Positions 20,357 through 34,633 of a DNA stretch of 64,000 bases are shown here, in pieces; within the stretch, counting starts at the first letter, position 1, and each line of letters opens with the position of its first letter. Under the pieces are notes generated by a model. It worked only from the letters and a program-made list of their open reading frames with translations. It was not told the DNA's origin and ran no database searches. The stretch is from Acholeplasmatales bacterium. GTDB lineage: Bacteria; Bacillota_I; Bacilli_A; Acholeplasmatales; JAEDCM01. The stretch spans positions 1 through 64,000 of the forward strand of contig JAGCWW010000020.1 in the NCBI GenBank assembly GCA_017961685.1, written 5' to 3'. Both the position numbers and the translations under genes were made by a program.

Positions 20357-20386
20357 GTAAGTTTGTACTTACTTTTTATTTTTTTT
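20355..20386 (+). terminator. Rho-independent terminator
   Basis: An 8-bp stem AAGTAAGT/ACTTACTT with a TTGT loop and T-rich tail. Confidence 0.85.
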
Positions 20387-20417
20387 GTTATATAATTATA
20401 GCGTCGGAGGTTTTATT

Positions 20418-21338
20418 ATGGAGTGGTATTATTATTTAATAATAGGTTTAGTAATTTTATTCATACCTTACTATATTCTATCAATAATTACATATAATCA
20501 CTTAATCCCAAGAGGAGTAGAAAAACCTCTAAATAAATGTGATTTAACTAATACACAATATAAACCATATATTAATGTCTTATATCAAGATATGAAGGAT
20601 ATGGAAGAAAAAGAATATAAAGAAATTGAGATCAAAGCATTTGATGGAATAACTTTAAAAGCTAATTATTATGATAATAAACAAAATAAAACAGCAATAC
20701 TTATTCATGGTTATAAAGCAACCCCTTTAAATAACTTTTCAACTATTGGAAAGTATTTAACTGAAATGGGTTATAACTTATTAATGATTTATCAAAGAAC
20801 ACATGGAAAAAGCGAAGGAAAATATATTACTTTTTCTAAAAGAGAAGGACTAGATCTATTAGAATGGATTAATTATGTTGATTCTAATAAAAAAATAGAT
20901 GAAATAATACTTTATGGTGTATCTATGGGTTCATCAACATTAATGAGTATATCTGATAAAATTTATTCAGAAAAGGTTAGACTTTTAGTATTTGAATCAG
21001 GTTTTATTAAGATGAATAGAATGGTTAAAGATTCACTAAAAAGAAAGAATAAATTATTACTTATATTCTACCCATTAGTTAAAGTTCATTCCCTATGCTT
21101 TGCGCATTTTAGATTATCAGGTTATGATATATCAAACAAACTTAAAGATTGTCATTATAAGAGTTTATTTATCCACGGAAAAGAAGATAGATTAATTAAT
21201 TATAAAGATAGTGTTCATGCTTTTAATAAAAAGGTAGATAATAAAGAATTATTATTAATTGATGGTGCTGGGCACAATATGTGTAACTTATATAATAGGA
21301 AAATAATCGAAGAAAAAATAAAAGAAATGACTAAATAA
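20418..21338 (+). CDS. Membrane-anchored alpha/beta hydrolase
   Basis: A serine hydrolase of 306 residues. The ATG at 20418 is chosen because GGAGG (20406-20410) lies 7 bases upstream; the frame opens earlier at a TTG inside the promoter, whose TATAAT is at 20391-20396. One N-terminal membrane helix anchors the enzyme. The fold shows the oxyanion loop ILIHGYKA, the nucleophile elbow GVSMGSS, the acid Asp in HGKEDRLI and the His in GAGHNMC. Substrate unknown; lipid or peptide esters are possible. A homologue at 32649 has a cysteine at the nucleophile position. Confidence 0.85.
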   Translation: MEWYYYLIIGLVILFIPYYILSIITYNHLIPRGVEKPLNKCDLTNTQYKPYINVLYQDMKDMEEKEYKEIEIKAFDGITLKANYYDNKQNKTAILIHGYKATPLNNFSTIGKYLTEMGYNLLMIYQRTHGKSEGKYITFSKREGLDLLEWINYVDSNKKIDEIILYGVSMGSSTLMSISDKIYSEKVRLLVFESGFIKMNRMVKDSLKRKNKLLLIFYPLVKVHSLCFAHFRLSGYDISNKLKDCHYKSLFIHGKEDRLINYKDSVHAFNKKVDNKELLLIDGAGHNMCNLYNRKIIEEKIKEMTK

Positions 21339-21360: not shown

Positions 21361-22290
21361 TTATTTTTGTAGAACTTCATTCATTATATCAGTTTCAGCT
21401 TTTAAATCTTCACTAATTGGCCTACCCATATAGAAAGCAGCCATTAAGCCTGGACCAACATTTATACCACATGATGGGAATACATCATTAATGATAATCT
21501 CTTTTGGATGGAACTTTTCATTAAGCATTTCCTTAAATTGTAATGCTTGCTTCATATGGTTAGTTTGAGCAATTAAAATGATTTGTTCACTAGGGTTTTC
21601 AATAGTTTTATCAATATAATTCATGATAGCTTGATAAGCTTTCTTTTCACCCTTGGCTTTACCTAAAACTGTAGTTAAACCTTGATGGTTAAATTCACCA
21701 AGTGGTTTAATACCAATTAATGTTCCAAAGAATGCTTTAGAGTTTGATAGTCTACCCTTTTTAGCAATAAATGATAGATCATCTAACCATCCCATTTCAT
21801 GGAAGCAGTTTTTCTTTTCTTCAATTAAGCTAGCAACTTCTTCAAGTGATTTTCCTTCACTTCTAAGTACGCTTGCCCAAATAGCAATAAGTCCAAATCC
21901 ATTTGAATATCTTTGTGAGTCGATACAAATGATTTTTGCATCAGGATATTCTTCTAAAACTAAATCACGAGCTTTTAAAGCAAAGTTATAAGTTCCTGAT
22001 AAAGCAGAAGAAATAGTTAGTGATAGAACATCATAACCTTCTTTAACATATTTAGTAAATGCTTCTTTAAATTCATCTATGTTTGCTGGACTTGTTGAAT
22101 AACCATTTGGATTACTCTTTAAAGCCTTATAAAATTCTTCTCTAGTACAATATTTCCATTCTAGAACTCCATCGCGTTCAACCTTATCAGGGAAAACGAT
22201 ATGCCCCTTAACATATTCAATGTCAAATCTTGTTCTTAATTCTTCACTTAAGTCACATGTTACATCTGGTAAAATAACAAATTTTTTCAT
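21361..22290 (-). CDS. fakB: DegV/FakB-family fatty-acid-binding protein
   Basis: A DegV-fold protein of 309 residues, the usual family length. The start at 22290 follows AGAGG by 8 bases; a GTG nine bases upstream is less likely. Seen are the N-terminal VILPDVTCDLSEEL, the ligand-loop motif SISSALSGTYNFA, and a C-terminal PSCGINVGPGLMAAFYMG. FakB proteins hold a free fatty acid while FakA phosphorylates it to acyl-phosphate. The gene is divergent from fakA, with only 123 bases between start codons, which supports this role over a general DegV role. It has its own near-consensus promoter. Confidence 0.88.
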   Translation of the reverse strand: MKKFVILPDVTCDLSEELRTRFDIEYVKGHIVFPDKVERDGVLEWKYCTREEFYKALKSNPNGYSTSPANIDEFKEAFTKYVKEGYDVLSLTISSALSGTYNFALKARDLVLEEYPDAKIICIDSQRYSNGFGLIAIWASVLRSEGKSLEEVASLIEEKKNCFHEMGWLDDLSFIAKKGRLSNSKAFFGTLIGIKPLGEFNHQGLTTVLGKAKGEKKAYQAIMNYIDKTIENPSEQIILIAQTNHMKQALQFKEMLNEKFHPKEIIINDVFPSCGINVGPGLMAAFYMGRPISEDLKAETDIMNEVLQK

Positions 22291-22313
22291 ATTTAACACC
22301 TCTCACTTTTAAA

Positions 22314-22413: not shown

Positions 22414-23970
22414 ATGGATGTTAAAATGCTTGATGGCCTACTATTTGAAAAAATGGTTTATAATGGTTTAAAAAATTTAAAACAAAATATTGATTTAATA
22501 AATTCTTTAAATGTTTTCCCTGTACCAGATGGTGATACAGGCATCAATATGTTTTTAACTTTAGAAAACGGATATTTAAAAAGTAATAGAGAAAGAAATC
22601 TAGGTTTATATTTAAAATCTTTATCTAAGGGTATGTTACTAGGAGCACGTGGTAACTCTGGAGTTATTTTATCTCAACTATTTAGAGGTTTAGCTAAGTC
22701 ACTAGCTGATAAACAAGAAGCAAATACTACTGATTTAGTTAATGCGTTTATCGCAAGCTACCGTGCCGCTTATAGTGCTGTAGTTAACCCGCAAGAAGGC
22801 ACAATGCTTACTACATCTAGAGAAGGTATAGAGTTAATTAAGAAAAACATCAATAATGATACAACAATAGATCAGCTTATTGTGATGTATCATAATCAGT
22901 TAAGAATATCTTTAGCTGAAACTCCAAAGCACTTAATTACTTTAAGAGAAGCGGGAGTAGTAGATAGTGGCGCTTATGGTTTAATGATAATCTATGAAGG
23001 CTTTGTAAAATACTTAGAAGGTATTATTTTAGATGATTTTGATATTGATGATAAATCATGTCAAATAAATGAGAATAATTTTACCGTTAATAATTCTAAC
23101 TATAAATATCTAGTTACTTTTAAGCTTCAACTAGAATATATTAAGATTGATTTTATTGAAGAAAACATTCCTTTAATAAAGGATGAATTACTATTAATTG
23201 GCGATATTATGTCATTTTCTAATGTTGATAATAATATAGATGTAGTTATTGCTACTGATAGCCCAGGGGTAGTAGTTAATACTTCTCAAAAGTATGGTGA
23301 ATTTATAGATATCAAAATAGATACAATTAAAAATGATGAATCACTAGAAGAACTTGCTTTCTTTGCTATTACACAAGGTGAAGGTTTAATAAACACATTA
23401 AAAGAATTAGGCTGTAAATATGTTTTAGAGCGTGGTAGTAATACAACTATTTCTACAGATGAAATAATTGATATTTTTAAAGATATTAACGCTAAAAATA
23501 TTATATGTCTTCCTAATAATGTTTCATCAGGTATTATCATTAAATGTGCAAGTGAAAAAATAAAAGATAAAAACGTTTATGTAATTGAATCTAAAACACC
23601 AGTTGAATCATATCTAGCCATGTCTATGGTAGTAGGAGATAACTTTGATTCACAGTTTCAAGTTAAACAAATGAATAATGGTATTAAAGATGTAAAAACA
23701 ATATTCTTAAAATGTGATGAAGAAGTTTATGCCTTATTAGATGGTAAAAAATATTCTTCAAATGAATATTTAGATACTTTAAAACAAGTATTTAATAAAG
23801 TACCTCAAATGGATAAAAGAGAAATTGTTATTTTATTTAAGGGTATAAATATGGATGATGATTTATTAGATGAAATAACTAACTTTATATATGATGAATA
23901 TCCTGATATCGAAGTAGGTGTAATTGATGCGATGCAGGATGATTATGAATTAATTATAGGGGTGAATTAA
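22414..23970 (+). CDS. fakA: Fatty acid kinase FakA (DAK2/YloV family)
   Basis: The ATP-dependent kinase that phosphorylates FakB-bound fatty acids to acyl-phosphate. The 518-residue chain has the N-terminal DhaL-like domain with the metal/ATP motif DGDTG at residues 39-43, followed by RGNSGVILSQLFRG, a middle domain, and a C-terminal part ending AMQDDYELIIGV. The length fits the family (about 550). It is divergent from fakB and one base ahead of plsX, so acyl-phosphate made here can pass directly to the next enzyme. This supports growth on exogenous or recycled fatty acids. Confidence 0.92.
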   Translation: MDVKMLDGLLFEKMVYNGLKNLKQNIDLINSLNVFPVPDGDTGINMFLTLENGYLKSNRERNLGLYLKSLSKGMLLGARGNSGVILSQLFRGLAKSLADKQEANTTDLVNAFIASYRAAYSAVVNPQEGTMLTTSREGIELIKKNINNDTTIDQLIVMYHNQLRISLAETPKHLITLREAGVVDSGAYGLMIIYEGFVKYLEGIILDDFDIDDKSCQINENNFTVNNSNYKYLVTFKLQLEYIKIDFIEENIPLIKDELLLIGDIMSFSNVDNNIDVVIATDSPGVVVNTSQKYGEFIDIKIDTIKNDESLEELAFFAITQGEGLINTLKELGCKYVLERGSNTTISTDEIIDIFKDINAKNIICLPNNVSSGIIIKCASEKIKDKNVYVIESKTPVESYLAMSMVVGDNFDSQFQVKQMNNGIKDVKTIFLKCDEEVYALLDGKKYSSNEYLDTLKQVFNKVPQMDKREIVILFKGINMDDDLLDEITNFIYDEYPDIEVGVIDAMQDDYELIIGVN

Positions 23971-23971
23971 A

Positions 23972-24910
23972 ATGAAAATTGTAATTGATACTCTAGGTAG
24001 TGACGATAAACTTAATGAAATATTAGATGGTGTTATTGATGCTTTAAATATGGTAAATAATTACGATTTCGTTTTAGTTGGAGATAGTAATTATATTACT
24101 AACTATCTAGATAAAAAAGTTGATCTTAATAGAATAGAATTAATTAATGCGAATACAGAAGTTGATGATTCAACTAACCCTATGGGAATGCTTAGAGATT
24201 TAGATGATACAGCTTTAGTTAAATCTTTAAAAAGATTAAAAGAAAGTGATGCAATAGGCTTAATCACTTCATCAAATACAGGCTGTGTATTTGTTGGATC
24301 TATTATGCATATAGGTTTAGTTAATAAAAAACTAATGACTCCTGTTTTATGTTGCTTAATTAAAAGTGATAAATATAAAGATATTTGCTTAGCTGATTGT
24401 GGAGCAAATATTAATTCAACTAGTGAGAATTTATTAACTTACGCAAAGCTTGCAAATGCCTTTGTTATGAGCTATTTTAATGTTGATAGACCTAAAATAG
24501 GCTTACTATCTAATGGTAGTAGTGATAAAAAAGGAGATAACGTTATAAAAGGTGCAAACAAATTACTTCGTGAATCTAATTTAAATTTTGTTGGTAATAT
24601 TGAAGCTAATAATATCTTTAATAGTGATATTGATGTTTTAGTTACTGATGGTATGCTAGGTAATGTCGTATTAAAGAATAGTGAAGGTGTTGCTAAAACA
24701 ATAATGAAGCTAATTAATAACGAAGAAGCTAATAAAATAATCACAAAATATTATGATTATTCTAATTTAGGTTGTTCATTTTTCTTAGGTACAAATAAAA
24801 TGATTGCTAAAAATCATGGTACTTTAAGTAGAAGTACAATCACATCTACAGTAAGTAGATTAATCACTATATATGAAAATGATTTTATTTCTAAAATTAA
24901 AGATATTTAG
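23972..24910 (+). CDS. plsX: PlsX-type acyl-ACP:phosphate acyltransferase
   Basis: PlsX exchanges acyl groups between acyl-phosphate and acyl carrier protein. The 312-residue protein matches the family in outline: DTLGSDD replaces the usual DAMGGD start, and STNPMGMLRDLDDTALVKSLKRLKE, SSNTGCVFVGS, DCGAN, and FVGNIEANNIF...VTDGMLGNVVLKNSEG follow. It is a divergent member and slightly short. It lies between fakA (one base) and the acyl ligase (11 bases), and so links the fatty-acid kinase to the carrier-based genes that follow. With a free ACP in the same operon, acyl-ACP formation from acyl-phosphate is plausible. Confidence 0.88.
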   Translation: MKIVIDTLGSDDKLNEILDGVIDALNMVNNYDFVLVGDSNYITNYLDKKVDLNRIELINANTEVDDSTNPMGMLRDLDDTALVKSLKRLKESDAIGLITSSNTGCVFVGSIMHIGLVNKKLMTPVLCCLIKSDKYKDICLADCGANINSTSENLLTYAKLANAFVMSYFNVDRPKIGLLSNGSSDKKGDNVIKGANKLLRESNLNFVGNIEANNIFNSDIDVLVTDGMLGNVVLKNSEGVAKTIMKLINNEEANKIITKYYDYSNLGCSFFLGTNKMIAKNHGTLSRSTITSTVSRLITIYENDFISKIKDI

Positions 24911-24921
24911 GAGTTGATATA

Positions 24922-26826
24922 ATGGTTAATGTAAGAAAAATTGTTAATTCAAGATGTAAGGCATTAGAAAATAGTAAAATGGATTTAGAAGCTATCTATA
25001 ATGTTATGTTTAGTAATGAAAAATATTATTTTGCTGAAGAAAATAATGGTTATAAAATTACTAAACATACTTATGGTGAAGTTGATAAAAAAATTAAAGA
25101 CTATGCTTATTCTATAAATAAAATATATCCCAATTTAAAAGATGAATATATAGGTATTTCTATAGATTCATCACTTGAATGGATATATATGTTTTGGGCT
25201 ACAATTTTATCTAATAATAAACCATTTTTAATTAATTTAAGACATCCAAAAGAATTAACTAATAATCTTTTAGATGATTTGGGTTGTAAATATTTAATTG
25301 GAAAAGATTTAGGTTATAATGGTACTTTAATTAAAATAGAAGATTTAAATTTAAAAGTAGAAGATAATTATAAATTTAATTATTCTAATGAATTATGCTT
25401 ATCAACAAGTGCCACAACACTAAAACGTAAGATAGTATTTTATACAGGATTAGAATTATCTAATCAAATATTAAACGTAAAAGAAGTACTTAGATGTAAT
25501 AAAAGAGTTAAAAAGCATTATAAAAATCAAATTAAGTTATTAGTATTCTTACCACTATATCATATCTTTGGACTTATTGCGGTATATATTTGGTTCTGTT
25601 TCTTTGGTAGAACATTAGTATTCTTAAAAGATTATTCATCTAATACTATACTTAATACTATTAAGATGAATAAAGTTACCCATGTTTTTGGTGTGCCACT
25701 ATTCTGGCATTCTATTGAAAAAGAAATATTAAAAGAAGTAAGTAAAAAACCTAAGAAGATTCAAGATAAGTTTTATAATGGTATGGAAAAAACGCTTAAA
25801 CTTCAAAAGAAATTTCCTAATCTAGGATTAAGACTTTCTATGAAGGGAATGAAGGAAATCACAGATAACTTATTTGGTAGACAAATTAAGTTTTTAATTA
25901 GTGGTGGATCATATATTAAAGATTCTACATTAAAACTAATAAATGCCTTAGGTTACCCACTTTACAATGGTTATGGTATGAGCGAAATAGGTGTTACATC
26001 AGTTGAATTAGGTAATATTACAGATAGACTTAAAAACTCTATTGGTAAACCATTACCATCAGTTGAATATAAAATAGTTGATGATATTTTATATGTAAAA
26101 GGTAAATCAATTAGTCATAAGATAATGATTAATAGAAATATAGAAATAATTGATGATTTCTTTAAAACAAATGATGTTGTAAAAAAAGATAATGATAATA
26201 GATATTATATTTTAGGTAGAGCGGATGATTTATTTATTTCAACTAATGGAGAAAACATTAGCCCTGATGAAATAGAAAAATTAATCAATGTTGAAAATAT
26301 TGAAAATTATTCTATTATAAATTATCAAAATGAATTATCATTAATCATTCAAGTTAAAAAATATTTAACAAATATTCAAAAGGATAGGATTAATGAAAGT
26401 GTAATTGATAATATTAACAAACTTGATAATTCCTTTAAACCAACAAAGATTTATTATACTTTTGATTCTTTAATGAGTGAAAATGCGATAAAGGTTAGTA
26501 GAAAATATTTACTTGATAAATTAGAGAAAAAAGAAGTAAATCTATTAGAATTTAAGGAAATTAAAACAGAAGAGAATAGTGAAATTGATTGTGATATCAA
26601 CATCTTAAATAAAGTAGTAGATATTATGGCAAGTATTTTAGATAAGAAAAATGATGAAATTGGTATTGATGCGAACTTTTTCTTTGATTTAGGTGGATCT
26701 AGCTTAGATTATTATAATCTAATTAGTATGATTACTACAGAATTTAAAGTAGAAATAAATTTAGATAATAATTCAAGTTTTTATACAGCTAGAAGTATAG
26801 CAAAAATGCTAGAGGAATTAGTATAA
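24922..26826 (+). CDS. AMP-forming acyl ligase fused to a C-terminal acyl carrier domain
   Basis: An adenylating enzyme of 634 residues that should activate a fatty acid or other carboxylate and load it on a carrier. The adenylation domain shows LPLYHIFGL, NGYGMSEIG, GRADDLFISTNGENISPDEIE and a late catalytic-type Lys in NAIKVSRKYL. The phosphate loop is atypical: STSATTLKRK at about 160-169 in place of TSGTTGxPK. Residues from about 555 form a carrier domain with FFDLGGSSLDY; Ser594 is the likely phosphopantetheine site. Its stop overlaps the next start by one base. Self-loading ligase-carrier fusions are known from lipid and polyketide pathways, but the product here is unknown. Confidence 0.83.
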   Translation: MVNVRKIVNSRCKALENSKMDLEAIYNVMFSNEKYYFAEENNGYKITKHTYGEVDKKIKDYAYSINKIYPNLKDEYIGISIDSSLEWIYMFWATILSNNKPFLINLRHPKELTNNLLDDLGCKYLIGKDLGYNGTLIKIEDLNLKVEDNYKFNYSNELCLSTSATTLKRKIVFYTGLELSNQILNVKEVLRCNKRVKKHYKNQIKLLVFLPLYHIFGLIAVYIWFCFFGRTLVFLKDYSSNTILNTIKMNKVTHVFGVPLFWHSIEKEILKEVSKKPKKIQDKFYNGMEKTLKLQKKFPNLGLRLSMKGMKEITDNLFGRQIKFLISGGSYIKDSTLKLINALGYPLYNGYGMSEIGVTSVELGNITDRLKNSIGKPLPSVEYKIVDDILYVKGKSISHKIMINRNIEIIDDFFKTNDVVKKDNDNRYYILGRADDLFISTNGENISPDEIEKLINVENIENYSIINYQNELSLIIQVKKYLTNIQKDRINESVIDNINKLDNSFKPTKIYYTFDSLMSENAIKVSRKYLLDKLEKKEVNLLEFKEIKTEENSEIDCDINILNKVVDIMASILDKKNDEIGIDANFFFDLGGSSLDYYNLISMITTEFKVEINLDNNSSFYTARSIAKMLEELV

Positions 26827-28088
26827 TGTTTATCCTATATTTGCTTGGATATATCCTCGCATGGCCCGTGCAGTTTATATATTTTAAGAAGAAAATATAT
26901 TATGAGGATAGGAAAAGCCAAGGAAGAAGAATTAAGGGCGGAGCCATAATAATATCTAATCATAGATCTTTTAAAGATTATATGATGTATATGTATGTTT
27001 TCTATTTTAGGAAAATGTATTGTTTAATGTCGGAACTTATTTATAAGAAAGGGCGTATTTTAGCCTTTTTAGTAACATGCTTAGGCGGAATAAAAGTTGA
27101 TAGATTTTCTTTTGATATGTCTTTTATAGGTAAATCAGTAGATTTACTTGAAAGAAAAAAGAAAGCTATTGTAATATTCCCTGAAGCTAAAATTAATAAA
27201 GAAAAAAGATTACAACGTTTTACAACAAGTTATATTCTAATGGCTTTAAAAGCTAACGTTCCAATTATACCAGTTTATACACTTGGTAAATATGGTTTAT
27301 TTAGACGTAGTAGAATGGCTATAGGTAAAAAGATATATTTATCTGATTATTGTAATAATACTAATCCTACAAAAGAAGAATTAGAATATTTAAATAAAAT
27401 AGTTGTAGATAAAATATATGAACTAGAGAAAATGGTTAAAGAAAAAATGCTTATTGAAGAATATGGTAAAGCATTTTCTCTTAAAAAGTTTAGTTTTGAT
27501 TTAGGTAGATTATTAGTCTTTATAATGAACTTACATTTTAGAGTAAAAGTAATTAATAAGAAAAATAAGAAAATTAAGGGTGGCTATATTATTGTTGCTA
27601 ACCATTCTATGTTTAAAGATCCATTGATTTTAATTAATGCTTTTAAAAATAGAAGAATTAGAATTTTGGCTGCGGAAATAGTTTTTGATGGGCATAAGGT
27701 TAGAAGTCATTTAATGAAGAAGATGGGCATTATTAGAATTGATAGATCTAAATATGATATTGATGCAGTAACAAAATGTATTGATGTTTTAAAAGGACAT
27801 GGTGTTTTAGTAATTTTCCCTGAAGGACATATCGATAGGGAAAATGGTATTAATGCCTTTAAGGGTGGTGCAGCCTTTATGGCTCAACAGGCAAATGTAC
27901 CTATTTTACCTGTATTTATAGAACCAAAAAGGCGCCATTTAAGATACCGTGTTAATATCGGTAATATGATAGATACAAGAAGTATTTGTACTAATAAATA
28001 TTCAACTACAGAACTAGATAAATTATCAGAAATGATATTTGATAGTATGAAGAAATTAGAAGAAAGTGTGGTAAATAAAAATGGATAA
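26826..28088 (+). CDS. Double-domain PlsC-like acyltransferase
   Basis: Two complete LPLAT/PlsC domains in one chain of 420 residues. The first has a membrane segment, the catalytic NHRSFKD (His46, Asp51) and VIFPEAKIN. The second has NHSMFKD (His260, Asp265), VIFPEGHIDRENG and PILPVFIEP. PlsC enzymes move an acyl chain from acyl-ACP or acyl-CoA to lysophosphatidate. Two domains in one protein could acylate both glycerol positions or two acceptors; the first domain has a less typical second motif (PEAK). It overlaps its neighbours by one and eight bases, which couples its translation to the ligase and the ACP. Confidence 0.85.
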   Translation: MFILYLLGYILAWPVQFIYFKKKIYYEDRKSQGRRIKGGAIIISNHRSFKDYMMYMYVFYFRKMYCLMSELIYKKGRILAFLVTCLGGIKVDRFSFDMSFIGKSVDLLERKKKAIVIFPEAKINKEKRLQRFTTSYILMALKANVPIIPVYTLGKYGLFRRSRMAIGKKIYLSDYCNNTNPTKEELEYLNKIVVDKIYELEKMVKEKMLIEEYGKAFSLKKFSFDLGRLLVFIMNLHFRVKVINKKNKKIKGGYIIVANHSMFKDPLILINAFKNRRIRILAAEIVFDGHKVRSHLMKKMGIIRIDRSKYDIDAVTKCIDVLKGHGVLVIFPEGHIDRENGINAFKGGAAFMAQQANVPILPVFIEPKRRHLRYRVNIGNMIDTRSICTNKYSTTELDKLSEMIFDSMKKLEESVVNKNG

Positions 28089-28317
28089 TACGTTTGATAG
28101 ATTAAAAGTTATCCTAGAAAGGATTAAACCAGATTGTGATTACTCAAATATTACAGAAGATTCAGATATTAAAAATGATTTAAATCTTAATTCTATTGGC
28201 TTCTTATATTTAGTATTAGGTATAGAAGAAGAATTTATGGTTGAAATACATAATGTTAATTCTGATGAATTTAAAACAGTAAAAGATGTAATTACTTATC
28301 TAGAAAATAATAAATAA
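28081..28317 (+). CDS. Acyl carrier protein
   Basis: A free carrier protein of 78 residues, acidic, with the usual four-helix pattern. The attachment motif is LNLNSIGFLYL, with NSI in place of the common DSL; the Ser of this motif should carry phosphopantetheine. It starts inside the PlsC gene (8-base overlap) and its stop overlaps the next start (TAATG). It is probably a dedicated carrier for this operon and not the general fatty-acid ACP, since no fab genes are nearby. Confidence 0.85.
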   Translation: MDNTFDRLKVILERIKPDCDYSNITEDSDIKNDLNLNSIGFLYLVLGIEEEFMVEIHNVNSDEFKTVKDVITYLENNK

Positions 28318-28694
28318 TGAAATTTGTTATTAAAGAACCTAAAAGAGGAGATATTGTAAAAGTTCTAATTTCAAATAATATTTACCATTTTGGTATTTAT
28401 TTAGGAAATGATGAAGTTGTTGAATATGGTAGTCAGCGTGATTTTGTTAAAGCAAATAAAGAAAACGTTGTGGTACAAAAAAGCAGTATGACTGATTTTT
28501 TAGATGGAAAGAATGTATTAGTTGCTAAATTATCATTATTAGAAAAGATAAAAAGAAATAGTGTAAATAAAACAATTAAAATTGCTTTATCTAGATTAGG
28601 TGAGGCTAAATATGATTTATTTAAAAATAACTGCGAACATTTTGTAAATGAATGTGTATTTAATAAGCATATATCATATCAATTAAAGAAATAG
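28317..28694 (+). CDS. LRAT-family (NCEHF) acyltransferase or hydrolase
   Basis: A 125-residue thiol enzyme of the LRAT/HRASLS type within the NlpC/P60 superfamily. Motifs are RGDIVKV, YHFGIYLGNDEVVEYG with the first catalytic His (His24), and the hallmark NNCEHFVNEC with Cys106 as nucleophile. The usual second His (VVH) is replaced by Glu (VVE). Eukaryotic members transfer acyl chains from phospholipids to retinol or amines, or hydrolyse phospholipids. This gene ends a translationally coupled operon of acyl-activating and acyl-transferring genes, so an acyl transfer to or from lipid is likely. There is no signal peptide. The stop overlaps the -35 of the next promoter. Confidence 0.82.
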   Translation: MKFVIKEPKRGDIVKVLISNNIYHFGIYLGNDEVVEYGSQRDFVKANKENVVVQKSSMTDFLDGKNVLVAKLSLLEKIKRNSVNKTIKIALSRLGEAKYDLFKNNCEHFVNECVFNKHISYQLKK

Positions 28695-28743: not shown

Positions 28744-28790
28744 AAAAAAAGAAGGTAGAGTTGGTGGCTCTACCTTCTTTGCTTTTGGTG
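28744..28790 (+). repeat. Tandem repeat unit 1 (hairpin A)
   Basis: This 47-base unit is repeated at 28851-28897 (period 107 bases) with only a few differences. It contains a perfect 13-bp hairpin, AAAGAAGGTAGAG/CTCTACCTTCTTT, at 28748-28780 with a TTGGTGG loop. The A-run to the left makes it a strong terminator for minus-strand transcripts. Confidence 0.8.
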
Positions 28791-28798
28791 GGAGACTG

Positions 28799-28827
28799 TT
28801 GATTTTTTTGTGATAATATTATATAAT
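28799..28827 (+). promoter_or_regulatory. Plus-strand promoter P2 of the putative antitoxin RNA
   Basis: TTGATT (28799-28804) and TATAAT (28822-28827) are 17 bases apart. The predicted RNA starts near 28834 and is antisense to the 3' end of the minus-strand toxin mRNA. Confidence 0.7.
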
Positions 28828-28833
28828 GATAAT

Positions 28834-28932
28834 GGCAGTATGTTAGATAAAAAAAAAGAAGGTAGAGTTCGTGGCTCTGCCTTCTTTGCTTTTGGAGGTG
28901 GCAGAATGTTAGATAGTTCTAGCTAGAACTAG
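28834..28932 (+). ncRNA. Putative antitoxin RNA (antisense to the toxin mRNA 3' end)
   Basis: RNA predicted from promoter P2. It carries hairpin B (28855-28887), and if it reads past that, a second self-complementary stretch AGTTCTAG/CTAGAACT (about 28916-28931). It is convergent with and overlaps the toxin transcript, the arrangement of BsrG/SR4 and TxpA/RatA. Its 3' end is uncertain because the plus-strand T-run (GCTTTT) is modest. Confidence 0.45.
28849..28887 (-). terminator. Shared hairpin B, terminator of the toxin mRNA
   Basis: A 13-bp stem (one G-U pair) with a TTCGTGG loop. Read on the minus strand it is followed by nine T, an ideal terminator; read on the plus strand it is followed by GCTTTT. 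Hairpin A at 28748-28780 is a second copy. Confidence 0.75.
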
Positions 28933-29314: not shown

Positions 29315-32300
29315 ATGAAGAAAGTATTACCATACTTTTTTTCCTTAGTAACAGTTGGGCTTTCTATTTTTTTGATTATGTATTTTAAGCCATTTACTAA
29401 GAAGGAAAAAACAACGACAAAAGTTAATACTACAACTACTATTGTTAATCAAACAACAGCTAATCAAACTACTGTTAAACCACACACAACAATTAAGCAA
29501 AACACTACTGTTAAGCAAACTACAACAATTAAGCAAACAGAAGAAAAGGAATATAAAGTGTTGTTTGATTCAGATGGTGGAGACTTAGTTGATAGTCAAA
29601 TAGTAAAAGAAGGAAGTAAGCTTACTAAACCAAAGGATCCAACAAAAGAAGGACATACTTTCTTAGGTTGGTATTTAGATGAAACATTAGTTGATTTAGA
29701 TACTTATTGTGTTACTAAAGATGTAACATTAAAAGCAAACTGGAGTGTTAATAGTTATACTGTTACATTCATATCTTATGTATTTGATACAGATTATTCA
29801 TCTACTCATCAACGTGAATATGGATCACTTGCAAAGTATTCAGCAGAAGAACCACTTGAAGCTATGACATTTGAAGGTTGGTATTTAGATGGTGAATTAA
29901 TTTCTACAGAATTAAGTTGTGAATTTATTATGCCTAGTAAAGATGTTACTATCAGAGCTGTTTATCAATTAATAGATTGCAAATTAGAATTTGTTAATTT
30001 AGGTGATGGAACAGGTACTGTTCAGGGATTAGGAACTTATAAAAGTTATAAAGAATTTACTGTTACAGCTGTTGCTGATGAAGGCTCATATTTTGCTGGT
30101 TGGTACTCTAGTCCAAATGCAACTAGTGCCTTTAATTACTATCCTACTCGATGCGAAAGTATATATGATGATAGAGTTTTATATGGTGCTTTTATAAAGG
30201 ATAATAGAGATTATACCGTAGAACACTATTTAGAAAACTTAGATGGAACATATAGTGAGGCATATTATACTGAAACATTATATGGTCAATATGAAAAAAT
30301 GACTAATGCTACTCCAAAAGAATATGTAGGATTTACTCCAAAGGAATTCAGTCAAGAAAAACTATCATTACTTGAAGATACAACAATTAAAATATATTAT
30401 GAGAGAAACGAATATAATTTAATTATAAACGTATTAGATGAAGCATTAGGTAGTGTTAGTGGAGAAGGAACTTATAAGTTTGGTGAAGAAATAGAGGCTG
30501 TTGCAACCCCAACAAATGGTCATAGAGTTGAAGGATGGTATGTTGATGGTATATTCCTACATAAAAACACAAATTATCTCATAACTATGCCAAATTATGA
30601 TTTAGCATTTTGTGTTAAATTTGAGATTAGAGATGATATAGGATATAAGGTTAATCATTATTTATGGCAAGAAGATAGAACATATGAATTAATTGATACT
30701 GAAACACTTATTGGTCCATATTTAGGGACAACAAATGCAGTTGCTAAAACATCTGAATATTATAAAGCAATTGAATTTGATCAAATTATAATTGATCCAA
30801 GTAAGAATATGTGTGTTAATATTTATTACTATCCAACAAATTATGAACTAAGAGTTGCGGTAAGTAATAATTATCATACAAATGAGTTTGCTGATAAAGT
30901 GGCTATTATAACTGCTGCTAGTAAAGAGATGAAAAGTGGATTTGAAGAAGAGACTGTGAAATATTTTGACTATTATAACTTTAGTTTAAATGGTTATTCT
31001 ACAAGTGCACTATATAATAGTTATTATGGTATAGGGAAGACTTATCAAGAATGGATAGACTTTTATGAGATGCCTAATGATAATCTAGATTATCCATATT
31101 TTGTTGATGAAAATGGTTATTTTAATCCATCGTTTTATGGATATGGTAGAGATGTTACACGTAAAATTCCAAAAGATATGAATAGTGTTGCTGGAAAATG
31201 CTATTCTTATATATGTGATTATCTTTTTGATAATTATTATGATTATGAGTTAAATATTTATCATTTAACAACTTCATCTGGAGAATTCTATTTTTATGCA
31301 AACGTAGGTAAATATACTCCTGGATTTTATGTGACAGACTTTGAGAATAGCTCTTTAACAGTAGAAATAGAGATTAGTGTGGATGGTATTATTAGAACAG
31401 GTGCAAAGAAATATGATGAAAATGGCTTTGTTAGCGAATATAACGGTTCACAAATGAGTCATACGATTTCGATTTATATGCCTTATGATGAATTCTGCGA
31501 AAGATTTGTTGCAAATGCAGATTATTCAAGTAGTTGTATTGATTCATACTCTAGAGGATATAGTGACAAAGTATTCTACCAATATGGTGAAGAAGCAGTT
31601 TTAACTGCTATTCCTAGCTCAGGAAATCTTTTTGTTGGATGGTATGAAGGAGATAATTTATTATCTGATTTGCCAAATTACACTTATCATATGAGTAATC
31701 ATGATACAATTATTAGAGCCGTATTTGAACCTAATATTAGTGAAATTATATCTGATATCATAAATGAAATAGAAGAAAGTGAAGATAACACATTCTACTT
31801 TGGATATTATCCTCAATCAAGAGTTGATAGTTCATATGAAACTTATATAAATAGTTTTGGAATAGAAAAACCAATAGTAGGTGATTTAAAGGGTTGGCAA
31901 ATAAACTATTATTATATAGATGCCGATTATAATACAATGGCTTATTATAACCTTGATACAAATAATGACGGCCAATATGATTTTATGGGTATAAGTGATG
32001 TTGTTGATAAGGACTATAGTTTTTTAAATCCTATCTGGTTTAAATATGAACCAATTAAATGGAACATACTTAAAAAAGAAGATGGAAAAGTAATGGCTAT
32101 TACAGATTTAATTATTGATTGTACATGGTTCTATTGGGGAAATAAACCTGGAAATAAGGATCATAATGGTGGAGAAGGCTATAATAGTAATTATGAATTC
32201 TCAGATATAAGAAAATGGCTAAATGATTATTTCTATAATGTTGCATTTAAGGAATATGAAAAAGAGTTAATAGAAGAGGTAGAAGTTAATAACGGAAGAG

Positions 32301-32617
32301 AAACTGCTAATAATGTAGGTGAACAATATATTTGTAATAATACATTTGATAAAGTATTCCTTTTATCATACAGTGAAGTAGGAGAATTCTATCCAACTAG
32401 TAATAGTAAATTATGTTACTATTCAGATTATTCAGCAATTACTGCTGGACGACGAATTGTTGGAGATCATACTGATGTTACAGCAAATTGGCTAACTCGT
32501 TCACCAGCTGGAAATAATTATGTTTACTCTGTATTATATAATGGTACATTAAGTTCGCTTAAAGCAGAGGCTCATGGCGGTGGAATTAGACCAGTATTAT
32601 GGTTAAATTTAGAATAA
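29315..32617 (+). CDS. Large surface protein with Thr-rich linker, InlB-type repeats and DUF6273 domain
   Basis: An exported protein of 1100 residues. The N-terminal signal-anchor (residues 5-25) has no lipobox Cys, unlike the paralogue at 440, so the protein is either membrane-anchored or processed by signal peptidase I. A Thr/Lys/Gln linker of about 50 residues follows, then several InlB/Flg_new-type repeats (FDSDGGDLV...GHTFLGWYLD) and VEHYLENLDGTY-type MucBP-like units, and a long unassigned middle. The end matches DUF6273 (YFGYYPQSR, WFKYEPIKWNIL, FSDIRKWLNDYF, LTRSPAGN, GGGIRPVLWLNLE). Function unknown; adhesion or glycan binding is plausible. The start has a GGGAG site and a TATAAT at 29266-29271. 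Confidence 0.82.
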   Translation: MKKVLPYFFSLVTVGLSIFLIMYFKPFTKKEKTTTKVNTTTTIVNQTTANQTTVKPHTTIKQNTTVKQTTTIKQTEEKEYKVLFDSDGGDLVDSQIVKEGSKLTKPKDPTKEGHTFLGWYLDETLVDLDTYCVTKDVTLKANWSVNSYTVTFISYVFDTDYSSTHQREYGSLAKYSAEEPLEAMTFEGWYLDGELISTELSCEFIMPSKDVTIRAVYQLIDCKLEFVNLGDGTGTVQGLGTYKSYKEFTVTAVADEGSYFAGWYSSPNATSAFNYYPTRCESIYDDRVLYGAFIKDNRDYTVEHYLENLDGTYSEAYYTETLYGQYEKMTNATPKEYVGFTPKEFSQEKLSLLEDTTIKIYYERNEYNLIINVLDEALGSVSGEGTYKFGEEIEAVATPTNGHRVEGWYVDGIFLHKNTNYLITMPNYDLAFCVKFEIRDDIGYKVNHYLWQEDRTYELIDTETLIGPYLGTTNAVAKTSEYYKAIEFDQIIIDPSKNMCVNIYYYPTNYELRVAVSNNYHTNEFADKVAIITAASKEMKSGFEEETVKYFDYYNFSLNGYSTSALYNSYYGIGKTYQEWIDFYEMPNDNLDYPYFVDENGYFNPSFYGYGRDVTRKIPKDMNSVAGKCYSYICDYLFDNYYDYELNIYHLTTSSGEFYFYANVGKYTPGFYVTDFENSSLTVEIEISVDGIIRTGAKKYDENGFVSEYNGSQMSHTISIYMPYDEFCERFVANADYSSSCIDSYSRGYSDKVFYQYGEEAVLTAIPSSGNLFVGWYEGDNLLSDLPNYTYHMSNHDTIIRAVFEPNISEIISDIINEIEESEDNTFYFGYYPQSRVDSSYETYINSFGIEKPIVGDLKGWQINYYYIDADYNTMAYYNLDTNNDGQYDFMGISDVVDKDYSFLNPIWFKYEPIKWNILKKEDGKVMAITDLIIDCTWFYWGNKPGNKDHNGGEGYNSNYEFSDIRKWLNDYFYNVAFKEYEKELIEEVEVNNGRETANNVGEQYICNNTFDKVFLLSYSEVGEFYPTSNSKLCYYSDYSAITAGRRIVGDHTDVTANWLTRSPAGNNYVYSVLYNGTLSSLKAEAHGGGIRPVLWLNLE

Positions 32618-32648: not shown

Positions 32649-33599
32649 TTATAAGTTATTTTCTTTTAAAAATTCTTTTATCGATTCATCATATTTTTCT
32701 AAATTATTTATTCTAATATGTGAATGAGCACCATGATCAAACCATACTATTTTTTTCTTATTGCTCTTACATTTGTTATATAGTATTTCTGATTTAGCTG
32801 GAAGAGAAAATTTATCTTCCTTACTATATAAGAATAGTATTGGCTTTTCATATTTATCAATTAGATTAAGTGGACCTTTTTTAATATTTACATGAGCCTT
32901 TAATCGCATAATAAAGGCAATTTCCCTTAAGAATGGGAATATTGGTCTGTGATCTACTATCATATGGTTTTTAAATGTTTCATAGAAGTTTATATACATT
33001 CCATCAGTTACAACACCTTTAATATAATCAGGACCATAATATGATGCATATAAGGCGGTAGATGCGCCTATACATATACCATGAATAATGATTTCTTCTT
33101 GACTAAATTCATCGTGTATATATTTAGCCCAAGCTATAATATCTTTATATTCTTTTAAGCCAACACAGTTATATATTCCATCACTTAAACCATGAGCACG
33201 TGAATCAACAACTAAGATATTATATCCTAAATCTTTATAAGGTTTAGCATAATAATAACAGTATAAAAGTGATTCTGTTCTACCTTGAAGAAGTATAGCT
33301 GTTTTATTACTTTTAAAATCAAAGAATTCACCATATAAGTTTAATCCTTCATTAACTATTTTAACTTCTTTTATAGAATCTTTATAAGGCTCGGCCCATT
33401 CTAAACCTGTATTATGCATTCTAAGTTGTTCCTCATTATCTGGAGCACTACATTCTCTATTCCATTTTGATTTATCAGTTCTAACTAATTCTTTTTTAAA
33501 TACTTTAAGTGCTATAAAGAATGGTGGTACAAATATCATAATAAATATTAGTAGAAGTACACCTATAACAATTAAAGCAATCACCCATGCATCTAACAT
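32649..33599 (-). CDS. Membrane-anchored alpha/beta hydrolase with a cysteine nucleophile elbow
   Basis: A protein of 316 residues with an N-terminal membrane helix (about 5-30) and an alpha/beta hydrolase domain. The elbow reads HGICIGAST, with Cys where most members have Ser; the acid (SKEDKFS) and His (HGAHSHIR) are in place. A Cys nucleophile is known in dienelactone hydrolases. The homologue at 20418 has the normal GVSMG. It overlaps the glycosyltransferase by seven bases, so the two are co-translated, and it could process the lipid- or glycan-linked product of that enzyme. Substrate unknown. Confidence 0.82.
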   Translation of the reverse strand: MLDAWVIALIVIGVLLLIFIMIFVPPFFIALKVFKKELVRTDKSKWNRECSAPDNEEQLRMHNTGLEWAEPYKDSIKEVKIVNEGLNLYGEFFDFKSNKTAILLQGRTESLLYCYYYAKPYKDLGYNILVVDSRAHGLSDGIYNCVGLKEYKDIIAWAKYIHDEFSQEEIIIHGICIGASTALYASYYGPDYIKGVVTDGMYINFYETFKNHMIVDHRPIFPFLREIAFIMRLKAHVNIKKGPLNLIDKYEKPILFLYSKEDKFSLPAKSEILYNKCKSNKKKIVWFDHGAHSHIRINNLEKYDESIKEFLKENNL

Positions 33600-34633
33600 A
33601 AATATATCTCCTTTTTAAATGATGAAAATGTATTAATTAAATTATATGATATAACAGTTATAATTAAAGCAATAAACATTGCGGCTATGCTTGGTATGCA
33701 TAAATCAAATAATAAATATAATCCACTATTTAAAGCTATATAGGCAAATATTTTATTAAAATAGAATGCCGAATAACGCTCAATATACCTTGTACCTTTA
33801 AAGAGATTTAATCTATTTAATATATATGGTAAATATATAAATATTAAAGTAGATGTAATTAAAGAAAAGTGCGTAAATAAAGGATTTTTTATTAATGTTT
33901 CAAATAATATAAAACTAATTATATAAATAAGTAAACTTATTGTATATGGTAAGTGATATGTTAGAATTGTTGAACAGATTTTTAAGAAATCCTTAATAGG
34001 GCGAAAATGCGTTTTCGCATTATTATCAAAGTATACTGTATCTATTTTCATTTCAGTTAACTCTATTCTAGCTTTTATAATATCAATTATCATATTCATT
34101 TCATATTCAAATCTCTTACCCTTTACCTTTAGTAAGAAAGGAAGAAGTTCATCATTAAATACTCTTAAGCCTGTTTGTGAATCATATACATATTTATTCA
34201 TACAACATCTAATTAAATAACGTGAAGAATTATTTCCTATTTTACTTTTAATAGGAACATCTCCTTCAAACATACGAGATCCAAGTAATAATCCATTATT
34301 AATTGTTTTATAGAAGTTTATACACCTATATATATCTTTAACTAAATGTTGGCCATCTGAATCAATTGTTGCAATAATCATTTTTTCATTTAAATCTTTT
34401 AAATATTTAAAAGCTGTTTTTAGTGCACAACCTTTACCTTTATTTACTTCATGAGTTAATACTACTACGTTTTTCATTTTTTTTGCTTCATCAAAAATAG
34501 AAGTATCAGTAGTTCCATCATTAACAATTACAATATTTATAGACTTAAAAAAACTATTAAGATCTTTGATTAAATCTAATAGTCTAAAGTTAGGTTCATA
34601 AGATGGAATTACAATATAAGTTTTATAGTCCAT
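33593..34633 (-). CDS. Family 2 glycosyltransferase with C-terminal membrane domain
   Basis: A 346-residue enzyme that probably moves a sugar from a nucleotide or polyprenol donor to a lipid. The GT2 domain starts YIVIPSYEPN and has IVNDGTTDTS, NKGKGCALKTA, the DxD-like DSDGQH and a SQTGLRVF acceptor motif, as in DPM1/GtrB enzymes. The last 130 residues hold about four membrane helices resembling GtrA, as often found fused to or beside such enzymes. It is translated with the hydrolase at 32649. The promoter is near consensus. Confidence 0.85.
   Translation of the reverse strand: MDYKTYIVIPSYEPNFRLLDLIKDLNSFFKSINIVIVNDGTTDTSIFDEAKKMKNVVVLTHEVNKGKGCALKTAFKYLKDLNEKMIIATIDSDGQHLVKDIYRCINFYKTINNGLLLGSRMFEGDVPIKSKIGNNSSRYLIRCCMNKYVYDSQTGLRVFNDELLPFLLKVKGKRFEYEMNMIIDIIKARIELTEMKIDTVYFDNNAKTHFRPIKDFLKICSTILTYHLPYTISLLIYIISFILFETLIKNPLFTHFSLITSTLIFIYLPYILNRLNLFKGTRYIERYSAFYFNKIFAYIALNSGLYLLFDLCIPSIAAMFIALIITVISYNLINTFSSFKKEIYLC

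Follow-up and report, generated by a model that had tools for sequence, protein, structure and literature searches.

Bacterial LplT-Aas systems, including the fusions PRK08633 and PRK06814 (PMC11416262), bring together an MFS transporter, a PlsC-type acyltransferase and an AMP-forming acyl-ACP ligase, and in the PlsX-AcpB systems of Lactobacillales a second acyl carrier protein (ACP) is co-encoded with plsX and obtains its acyl group from exogenous acyl-phosphate; for AcpB of Enterococcus faecalis, it is PlsX that carries out this charging (PMC6509188). The fatty acid kinase FakAB comprises DegV/FakB and FakA proteins; in Staphylococcus aureus FakA, mutation of Cys240, His282 or His284 lowers activity about 100-fold or more (PMC9136124). 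Two further kinds of acyltransferase bear comparison: the PLAAT/HRASLS and LRAT enzymes, with their characteristic fold, His...Cys core and NCEHF motif, and BtrH, an ACP:aminoglycoside acyltransferase of the papain-like superfamily described as using an acyl carrier protein as its acyl donor (PMC10318531). Here we describe a six-gene operon in which relatives of several of these components stand side by side, located in a window of 64,000 nucleotides from an Acholeplasmatales bacterium (assembly GCA_017961685.1, contig JAGCWW010000020.1, positions 1 to 64,000, forward strand). The window is contig 61 of an 84-contig genome (G000) of 2.04 Mb that is 82% complete; below, G numbers denote genomes and L numbers loci. 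By comparing neighbourhoods across related genomes we find that the operon represents a module that is real, dedicated and repeatedly conserved in gut and rumen bacteria. All six open reading frames (ORFs) lie on the forward strand:

22414-23970 (+): FakA-like protein (Pfam Dak2 2e-33, FakA_C 2e-28)
23972-24910 (+): PlsX, a diverged second copy (Pfam 3e-52)
24922-26826 (+): AMP-forming acyl ligase with its own carrier domain, hereafter ligase~carrier (Pfam AMP-binding 2e-29, PP-binding 4e-10)
26611-26805 (+): carrier domain of this ligase, residues 564-628, phosphopantetheine Ser594 (codon 26701-26703; Pfam PP-binding)
26826-28088 (+): double PlsC acyltransferase (Acyltransferase PF01553 twice, 2e-45; N-terminal domain in clade PlsC-A, C-terminal domain in clade PlsC-B)
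28081-28317 (+): free ACP, NSIG motif, Ser38 (codon 28192-28194; PP-binding 4e-4, NCBIfam ACP 1e-13)
28317-28694 (+): LRAT/PLAAT-type cysteine acyltransferase, 125 aa (Pfam LRAT 2e-22)

Successive genes are separated by gaps of 1 and 11 bases and then overlap by 1, 8 and 1 bases. These positions and junctions agree with a preliminary description of the operon made from the sequence alone, as do the gene families, now matched in Pfam for all six, and the motifs named there for the later genes: two NHxxxxD boxes, NCEHF with Cys106, and the carrier serines Ser594 and Ser38. The operon departs from each described system in specific ways. Relative to LplT-Aas, the module has a ligase with its own carrier, two PlsC clades, an ACP/PlsX arm and an LRAT protein, and MFS_2 replaces LplT as the transporter that forms part of some loci; the window operon itself has no MFS gene. 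Relative to PlsX-AcpB, the module adds the ligase~carrier, the PlsC pair and LRAT, its ACP bears NSIG, and the ACP of the window does not adjoin plsX. BtrH belongs to a family other than that of the module LRAT, and its acceptor is an antibiotic.

To inventory the gene set, a ligase alignment was used to scan one genome per species, which returned 169 relatives; the neighbourhoods of the best 80, all labelled as metagenome-assembled genomes (MAGs) or uncultured, were annotated with hidden Markov models (HMMs) and, with the window, make up 81 loci. All relatives examined are draft genomes, mostly metagenome-assembled, of gut or rumen source, and the nearest named relatives of the window genome are rumen and gut MAGs labelled Acholeplasmatales, Bacillales or Erysipelotrichaceae. 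The gene set recurs in Bacilli, Lachnospiraceae, Oscillospiraceae and other Clostridia, and because the order ligase-PlsC(-PlsC)-ACP-LRAT was seen again in dozens of other species, it is more than a chance assembly. PlsC accompanies nearly all of the 81 ligase~carrier genes; other constituents are an alpha/beta hydrolase (67 loci), FakA (66), DegV/FakB (63), ACP (52), PlsX (43), a GT2 glycosyltransferase (41), LRAT (38), a phosphopantetheinyl transferase (PPTase; 23), a lysophospholipase-L2-like hydrolase (22) and MFS_2 (20). The distribution within the order is patchy, 15 of 120 relatives giving any ligase match, and a plasmid collection searched with the ligase yielded only distant matches of 20-29%, none covering 80% of the query. 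A literature search (LRAT with acyl carriers, FakB/PlsX/PlsC, gut Firmicutes) found no description of the gene set, which the preliminary description had likewise not recognised.

The constituents do not vary independently. ACP and PlsX occur together in 37 loci and are both missing from 14, with ACP alone in five and PlsX alone in none (p=2e-9); three of the five loci with ACP but no PlsX have a second ligase. GT2 and PlsX also co-occur (p=7e-6). The 13 single-PlsC loci scored include none with ACP or LRAT and 12 with MFS_2, whereas of the 57 loci with PlsC-B, which thus contain both PlsC domains, 49 include ACP and 35 include LRAT. The eight two-PlsC loci without ACP come mostly from f2, a relative family within Acholeplasmatales, and in one of the eight, L178, the second PlsC lies elsewhere in the locus. 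Because PlsC-B predicts ACP and LRAT, and ACP goes with PlsX or a second ligase, we read the module as a core of ligase~carrier and PlsC-A, which MFS_2 transporter and FakAB genes often accompany, and an extension of PlsC-B and free ACP with PlsX or ligase-2, with or without LRAT. These natural units cut across the division into the first two and last four genes drawn in the preliminary description. The fullest form (L217, L162, L184) comprises ligase~carrier, MFS_2, PlsC, PlsC, ligase-2, ACP and LRAT, the ACP frame of L217 having been detected by HMM. The f2 operon has an Sfp-type PPTase between FakA and the ligase and neither PlsX nor free ACP; the 186-aa gene of relatives, considered as another lipid enzyme replacing PlsX, proved to be this PPTase.

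The terminal gene product scores 79.9 bits against the LRAT family PF04970 (cut-off 24.3), and its His24, Cys106 and His108 are invariant in 44 sequences. At the third catalytic position the window protein has Glu36 and most relatives have Gln, where the Cys-His-His triad of eukaryotic enzymes has His; given this difference, and given that the third residue varies across the wider superfamily (PMC10318531, PMC7387801), we call the protein a PF04970 member with a predicted PLAAT-like fold, not a PLAAT. Its AlphaFold (AF2) model (pLDDT 95) is closest to PLAAT3, PLAAT2 and PLAAT4, and its profile matches in the PDB were solely PLAAT/HRASLS proteins and an HRASLS3/LRAT chimera. Unlike the PLAAT/HRASLS and LRAT enzymes, it is a 125-aa bacterial protein encoded beside ACP or PlsC and has no evident membrane anchor, neither a signal peptide nor a membrane helix being apparent in its sequence by eye.

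Linkage of this protein to the ligase is close. Module-type LRAT genes were found in nine of the 120 relatives, all nine of which carry ligase~carrier (Fisher p=5e-12, ancestry ignored); wherever contigs are long enough to show it, gene order is kept in these genomes and some 1.3-1.6 kb separate the ligase from LRAT downstream, and in G114 the two are on different contigs. The gene follows ACP or PlsC-B, its distance from the preceding gene being between -28 and +16 bases in most loci, and in several others an apparent 0.2-kb gap before it in fact holds an ACP. Pairwise distances of LRAT and ligase are strongly correlated (Mantel r=0.84, n=38, 0/2000 permutations), a value to which shared species history contributes. 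The nine-of-nine co-occurrence and this correlation exclude LRAT as a chance neighbour. The preliminary description had tied the module idea to LRAT keeping company with the other genes. LRATs standing alone do exist in bacteria, and one branch separates them from the module LRATs (94/96 support), so that the two are not the same thing; every module-type LRAT with readable neighbours has ligase, PlsC and/or ACP genes among them. The window genome has one LRAT of each type, the lone gene (contig C84, 51813-52148; L001) belonging to the separate subfamily that occurs in many relatives without module neighbours.

Ligase Lys524, the motif residues and carrier Ser594 are invariant in 10 relatives, and both carriers place their phosphopantetheine serines in standard motifs, NSIG being the commonest carrier motif among ACPs of the loci; for carrier activation, the window genome has an Sfp-type PPTase on contig C77. 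In a tree of PlsC domains, first, N-terminal or single domains and second or C-terminal domains form two clades with 100/100 support. Their motifs in the window protein are NHRSFKD/FPEA for PlsC-A and NHSMFKD/FPEG for PlsC-B. By this tree the double PlsC is a fusion of one member of each clade. The best full-protein match of PlsC-A/B is the LplT-Aas fusion PRK08633; the HX4D-bearing PlsC and AMP-ligase domains are here on separate proteins, and scores fall far below the curated cut-offs for Aas.

In an alignment of 68 FakA copies, the operon FakA keeps Asp38 and Asp40 of the ATP/Mg site, as known FakA proteins do, but has Leu, Val and Ala at the positions of S. aureus Cys240, His282 and His284 in the FakA_L domain (Ser, Val and Ala in the congeneric genome G002), although each triad residue is intact in 56-57 of the 68. 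Of the fatty-acid phosphorylation motif previously assigned to this gene, the ATP site (DGDTG) therefore stands and the Cys-His-His triad for Fak activity does not, and it is doubtful that FakAB-PlsX supplies acyl-phosphate from within this operon, as had been supposed. The other FakAs of the window genome, on contigs C22 and C11, have intact triads. In the module FakAs of L112, L114, L126, L131, L137, L147 and L157 the FakA_L catalytic residues fall in an alignment gap (domain absent or shortened), and the triad is lost from that of L173 too. The operon PlsX keeps 38 of 43 near-invariant residues, its changes including G103S and E186S, and a higher-scoring PlsX copy is found on C22. The divergent DegV/FakB keeps 28 of 28 conserved columns, and its identity across two congeneric species is 91%. 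The FakA may be regulatory, may use another chemistry or may be decaying; since it is 79% identical between the two species, it seems still to be maintained. Loss of the FakA triad in the window and in G002, together with the PlsX changes at G103 and E186, would suit decay of the whole kinase arm (FakA and PlsX) of this operon, with only the ligase~carrier, PlsC, ACP and LRAT still functional. That possibility, compatible with the explanation we favour below, seems to us doubtful: neither gene is truncated, each shows 79-80% identity across the two species, so that they look maintained, and DegV is better conserved still.

As to the source of acyl chains, three of three genomes of the window genus (72-83% complete) gave no ketoacyl synthase match, so this genus probably imports fatty acids. 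The enzyme is absent from 14 of 16 other module genomes versus 131 of 295 genomes in the order to which G475, source of L141, belongs (p=0.001, ancestry ignored; the background of 295 may include module genomes). The share of about 44% in that order suggests that these gut Clostridia commonly lack type II fatty acid synthesis (FASII). Module genomes of f2, by contrast, possess a complete FASII set, and its ketoacyl synthase is a fused double one: in two f2 loci (L249:8660-11047 and L250:7886-10321) a protein of about 800 aa with two ketoacyl-synthase matches lies within a FASII gene run that otherwise looks standard, with ORFs resembling FabD, Acc, FabZ and FabG in sequence. A strict tie of the module to FASII loss is thus ruled out, f2 keeping FASII and some 44% of the 295 genomes searched having no ketoacyl synthase in any case; the module fits users of exogenous acyl chains and is not bound to FASII loss.

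From gene content, conservation, co-occurrence, clades, residues and predicted fold we infer substrates, direction and product, and we consider it somewhat more likely than not that the module serves salvage of exogenous fatty acids or lysolipids with acylation and remodelling of glycerolipids, in the manner of LplT-Aas combined with PlsX-AcpB and with LRAT as a cysteine acyltransferase. Judging by its motifs, the ligase would adenylate a fatty acid and load its own carrier domain, from which PlsC-A would transfer the acyl group in ester linkage to a glycerolipid acceptor, for example glycerol phosphate or a lysophospholipid. In a second arm, PlsX would charge the free ACP from acyl-phosphate, some relatives having a second ligase instead; in the window this acyl-phosphate probably comes from the other FakAs of the genome, because the operon FakA lacks the catalytic triad. 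Strict co-occurrence suggests that PlsC-B uses the free ACP, so that the two domains may place two chains from two sources. LRAT would then form acyl-Cys106 from acyl-ACP or a lipid ester and re-deposit the chain on a lipid, remodelling it or adding a chain. An Aas-type PlsC, a lysophospholipase-L2-like hydrolase (1e-35), MFS_2 and FakAB (FakA/DegV in about 65 of 81 loci) as neighbours point to glycerolipids and exogenous acyl chains; for the amine, plasmalogen or signal acceptor suggested in the preliminary description, no tested evidence pointed that way.

Several observations weigh on the other side. The f2 genomes have a full FASII and still keep the module, in an operon that has neither PlsX nor free ACP, so that ACP is dispensable to LRAT and import is not the sole source of acyl groups. 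The MFS_2 alignment matches no solved lysolipid transporter in the PDB, and NCBIfam places it as GPH symporter-like; MFS_2 as a proven lysolipid carrier is thus not supported. The lysophospholipase-L2-like hydrolase was not found in the window. Incompleteness of the genomes, 72-83% in the window genus, weakens claims of absence, the enrichment tests ignore shared ancestry, and the substrates and product of the module are inferred throughout.

The strongest competitor, which we regard as possible but clearly less probable, is dedicated synthesis of an unusual lipid, in which LRAT would be the committed enzyme, moving a carrier-bound chain to the amine or hydroxyl of a special acceptor (N-acyl-phosphatidylethanolamine, acyl-phosphatidylglycerol or an aminolipid) with PlsC adding O-acyl chains. 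Compact ligase2-ACP-LRAT runs in G099, G266, G285 and G340, the first of which (L064:3592-8298) continues with a PPTase and then an HD-domain protein, favour such a scheme, as does the confinement of LRAT to PlsC-B loci; BtrH offers a papain-like-superfamily precedent for an enzyme with an ACP substrate (PMC10318531), and PLAATs N-acylate phosphatidylethanolamine (PMC7387801). Yet the island has no conserved amine-, ether- or head-group enzyme, the same genes occur without LRAT in many loci, and a source of 3-hydroxyacyl groups is not apparent in the FASII-less window genus. Also tentative is our suggestion that module LRATs might be the first carrier-protein-dependent PLAAT/LRAT-type enzymes, taking acyl-ACP and not phospholipid as donor and making an undescribed lipid of gut Bacillota, either a third-chain or an N-acyl phospholipid.

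A plain housekeeping operon for phosphatidic acid synthesis would account for PlsX, PlsC and ACP, which are housekeeping parts, but is very unlikely: a second FakA-PlsX pair lies elsewhere in the genome, its genes near each other in housekeeping-type order, and further ACP and PlsC genes are present too; moreover, that pathway involves neither ligase~carrier nor LRAT, and occurrence in the order is patchy. The separate FakA and PlsX copies, with recurrence of the set across Bacilli and Clostridia, uphold the earlier proposal of a dedicated module. Least probable of all is a role for LRAT in N-acylating lipoproteins or the cell envelope, comparable to that of S. aureus LnsA, an NlpC/P60-superfamily precedent in bacterial N-acylation with HRASLS/PLAAT among its remote relatives (PMC7387801), since the module LRAT shows no evident signal or membrane segment, its gene lies among those of cytoplasmic carrier enzymes, and no LnsB-like partner was recognised among conserved neighbour clusters.

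The remaining features around the operon are as follows:

20385-21338 (+): alpha/beta hydrolase, conserved neighbour (Pfam Hydrolase_4 1e-15; neighbour cluster in 67 of 81 loci)
21361-22299 (-): DegV/FakB-type fatty-acid-binding protein, divergent, directly upstream of the operon (Pfam DegV 1e-61)
28748-28780 (+): intrinsic terminator after the last gene, strong hairpin with a 15-pair stem
32649-33599 (-): second alpha/beta hydrolase, same neighbour cluster as the first
33593-34633 (-): GT2 polyprenyl-phosphate-type glycosyltransferase, conserved as a neighbour where loci carry PlsX

Downstream of the operon, at 28748-28900, two near-identical copies of a hairpin (AAGAAGGTAGAG...CTCTACCTTCTT or similar) follow one another, and 29315-32617 encodes an 1100-aa protein that looks secreted, with InlB-type repeats and a DUF6273 domain. 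Elsewhere, in G003, L068:5395-8523 holds a small NRPS-like trio of adenylation, ACP and condensation genes.

Genes hitherto annotated separately as "AMP-binding", "PlsC", "ACP" and "LRAT family" become, through these comparisons, one testable system, in which a FakA homologue can persist without its catalytic triad. Which step LRAT performs, and whether acyl-ACP is its donor, is a testable question. If our reading is correct, the module would be a defined route to outside fatty acids for many uncultured Bacillota of gut and rumen, in which a ketoacyl synthase often goes undetected, and would tie bacterial PLAAT-like enzymes to acyl carrier proteins.

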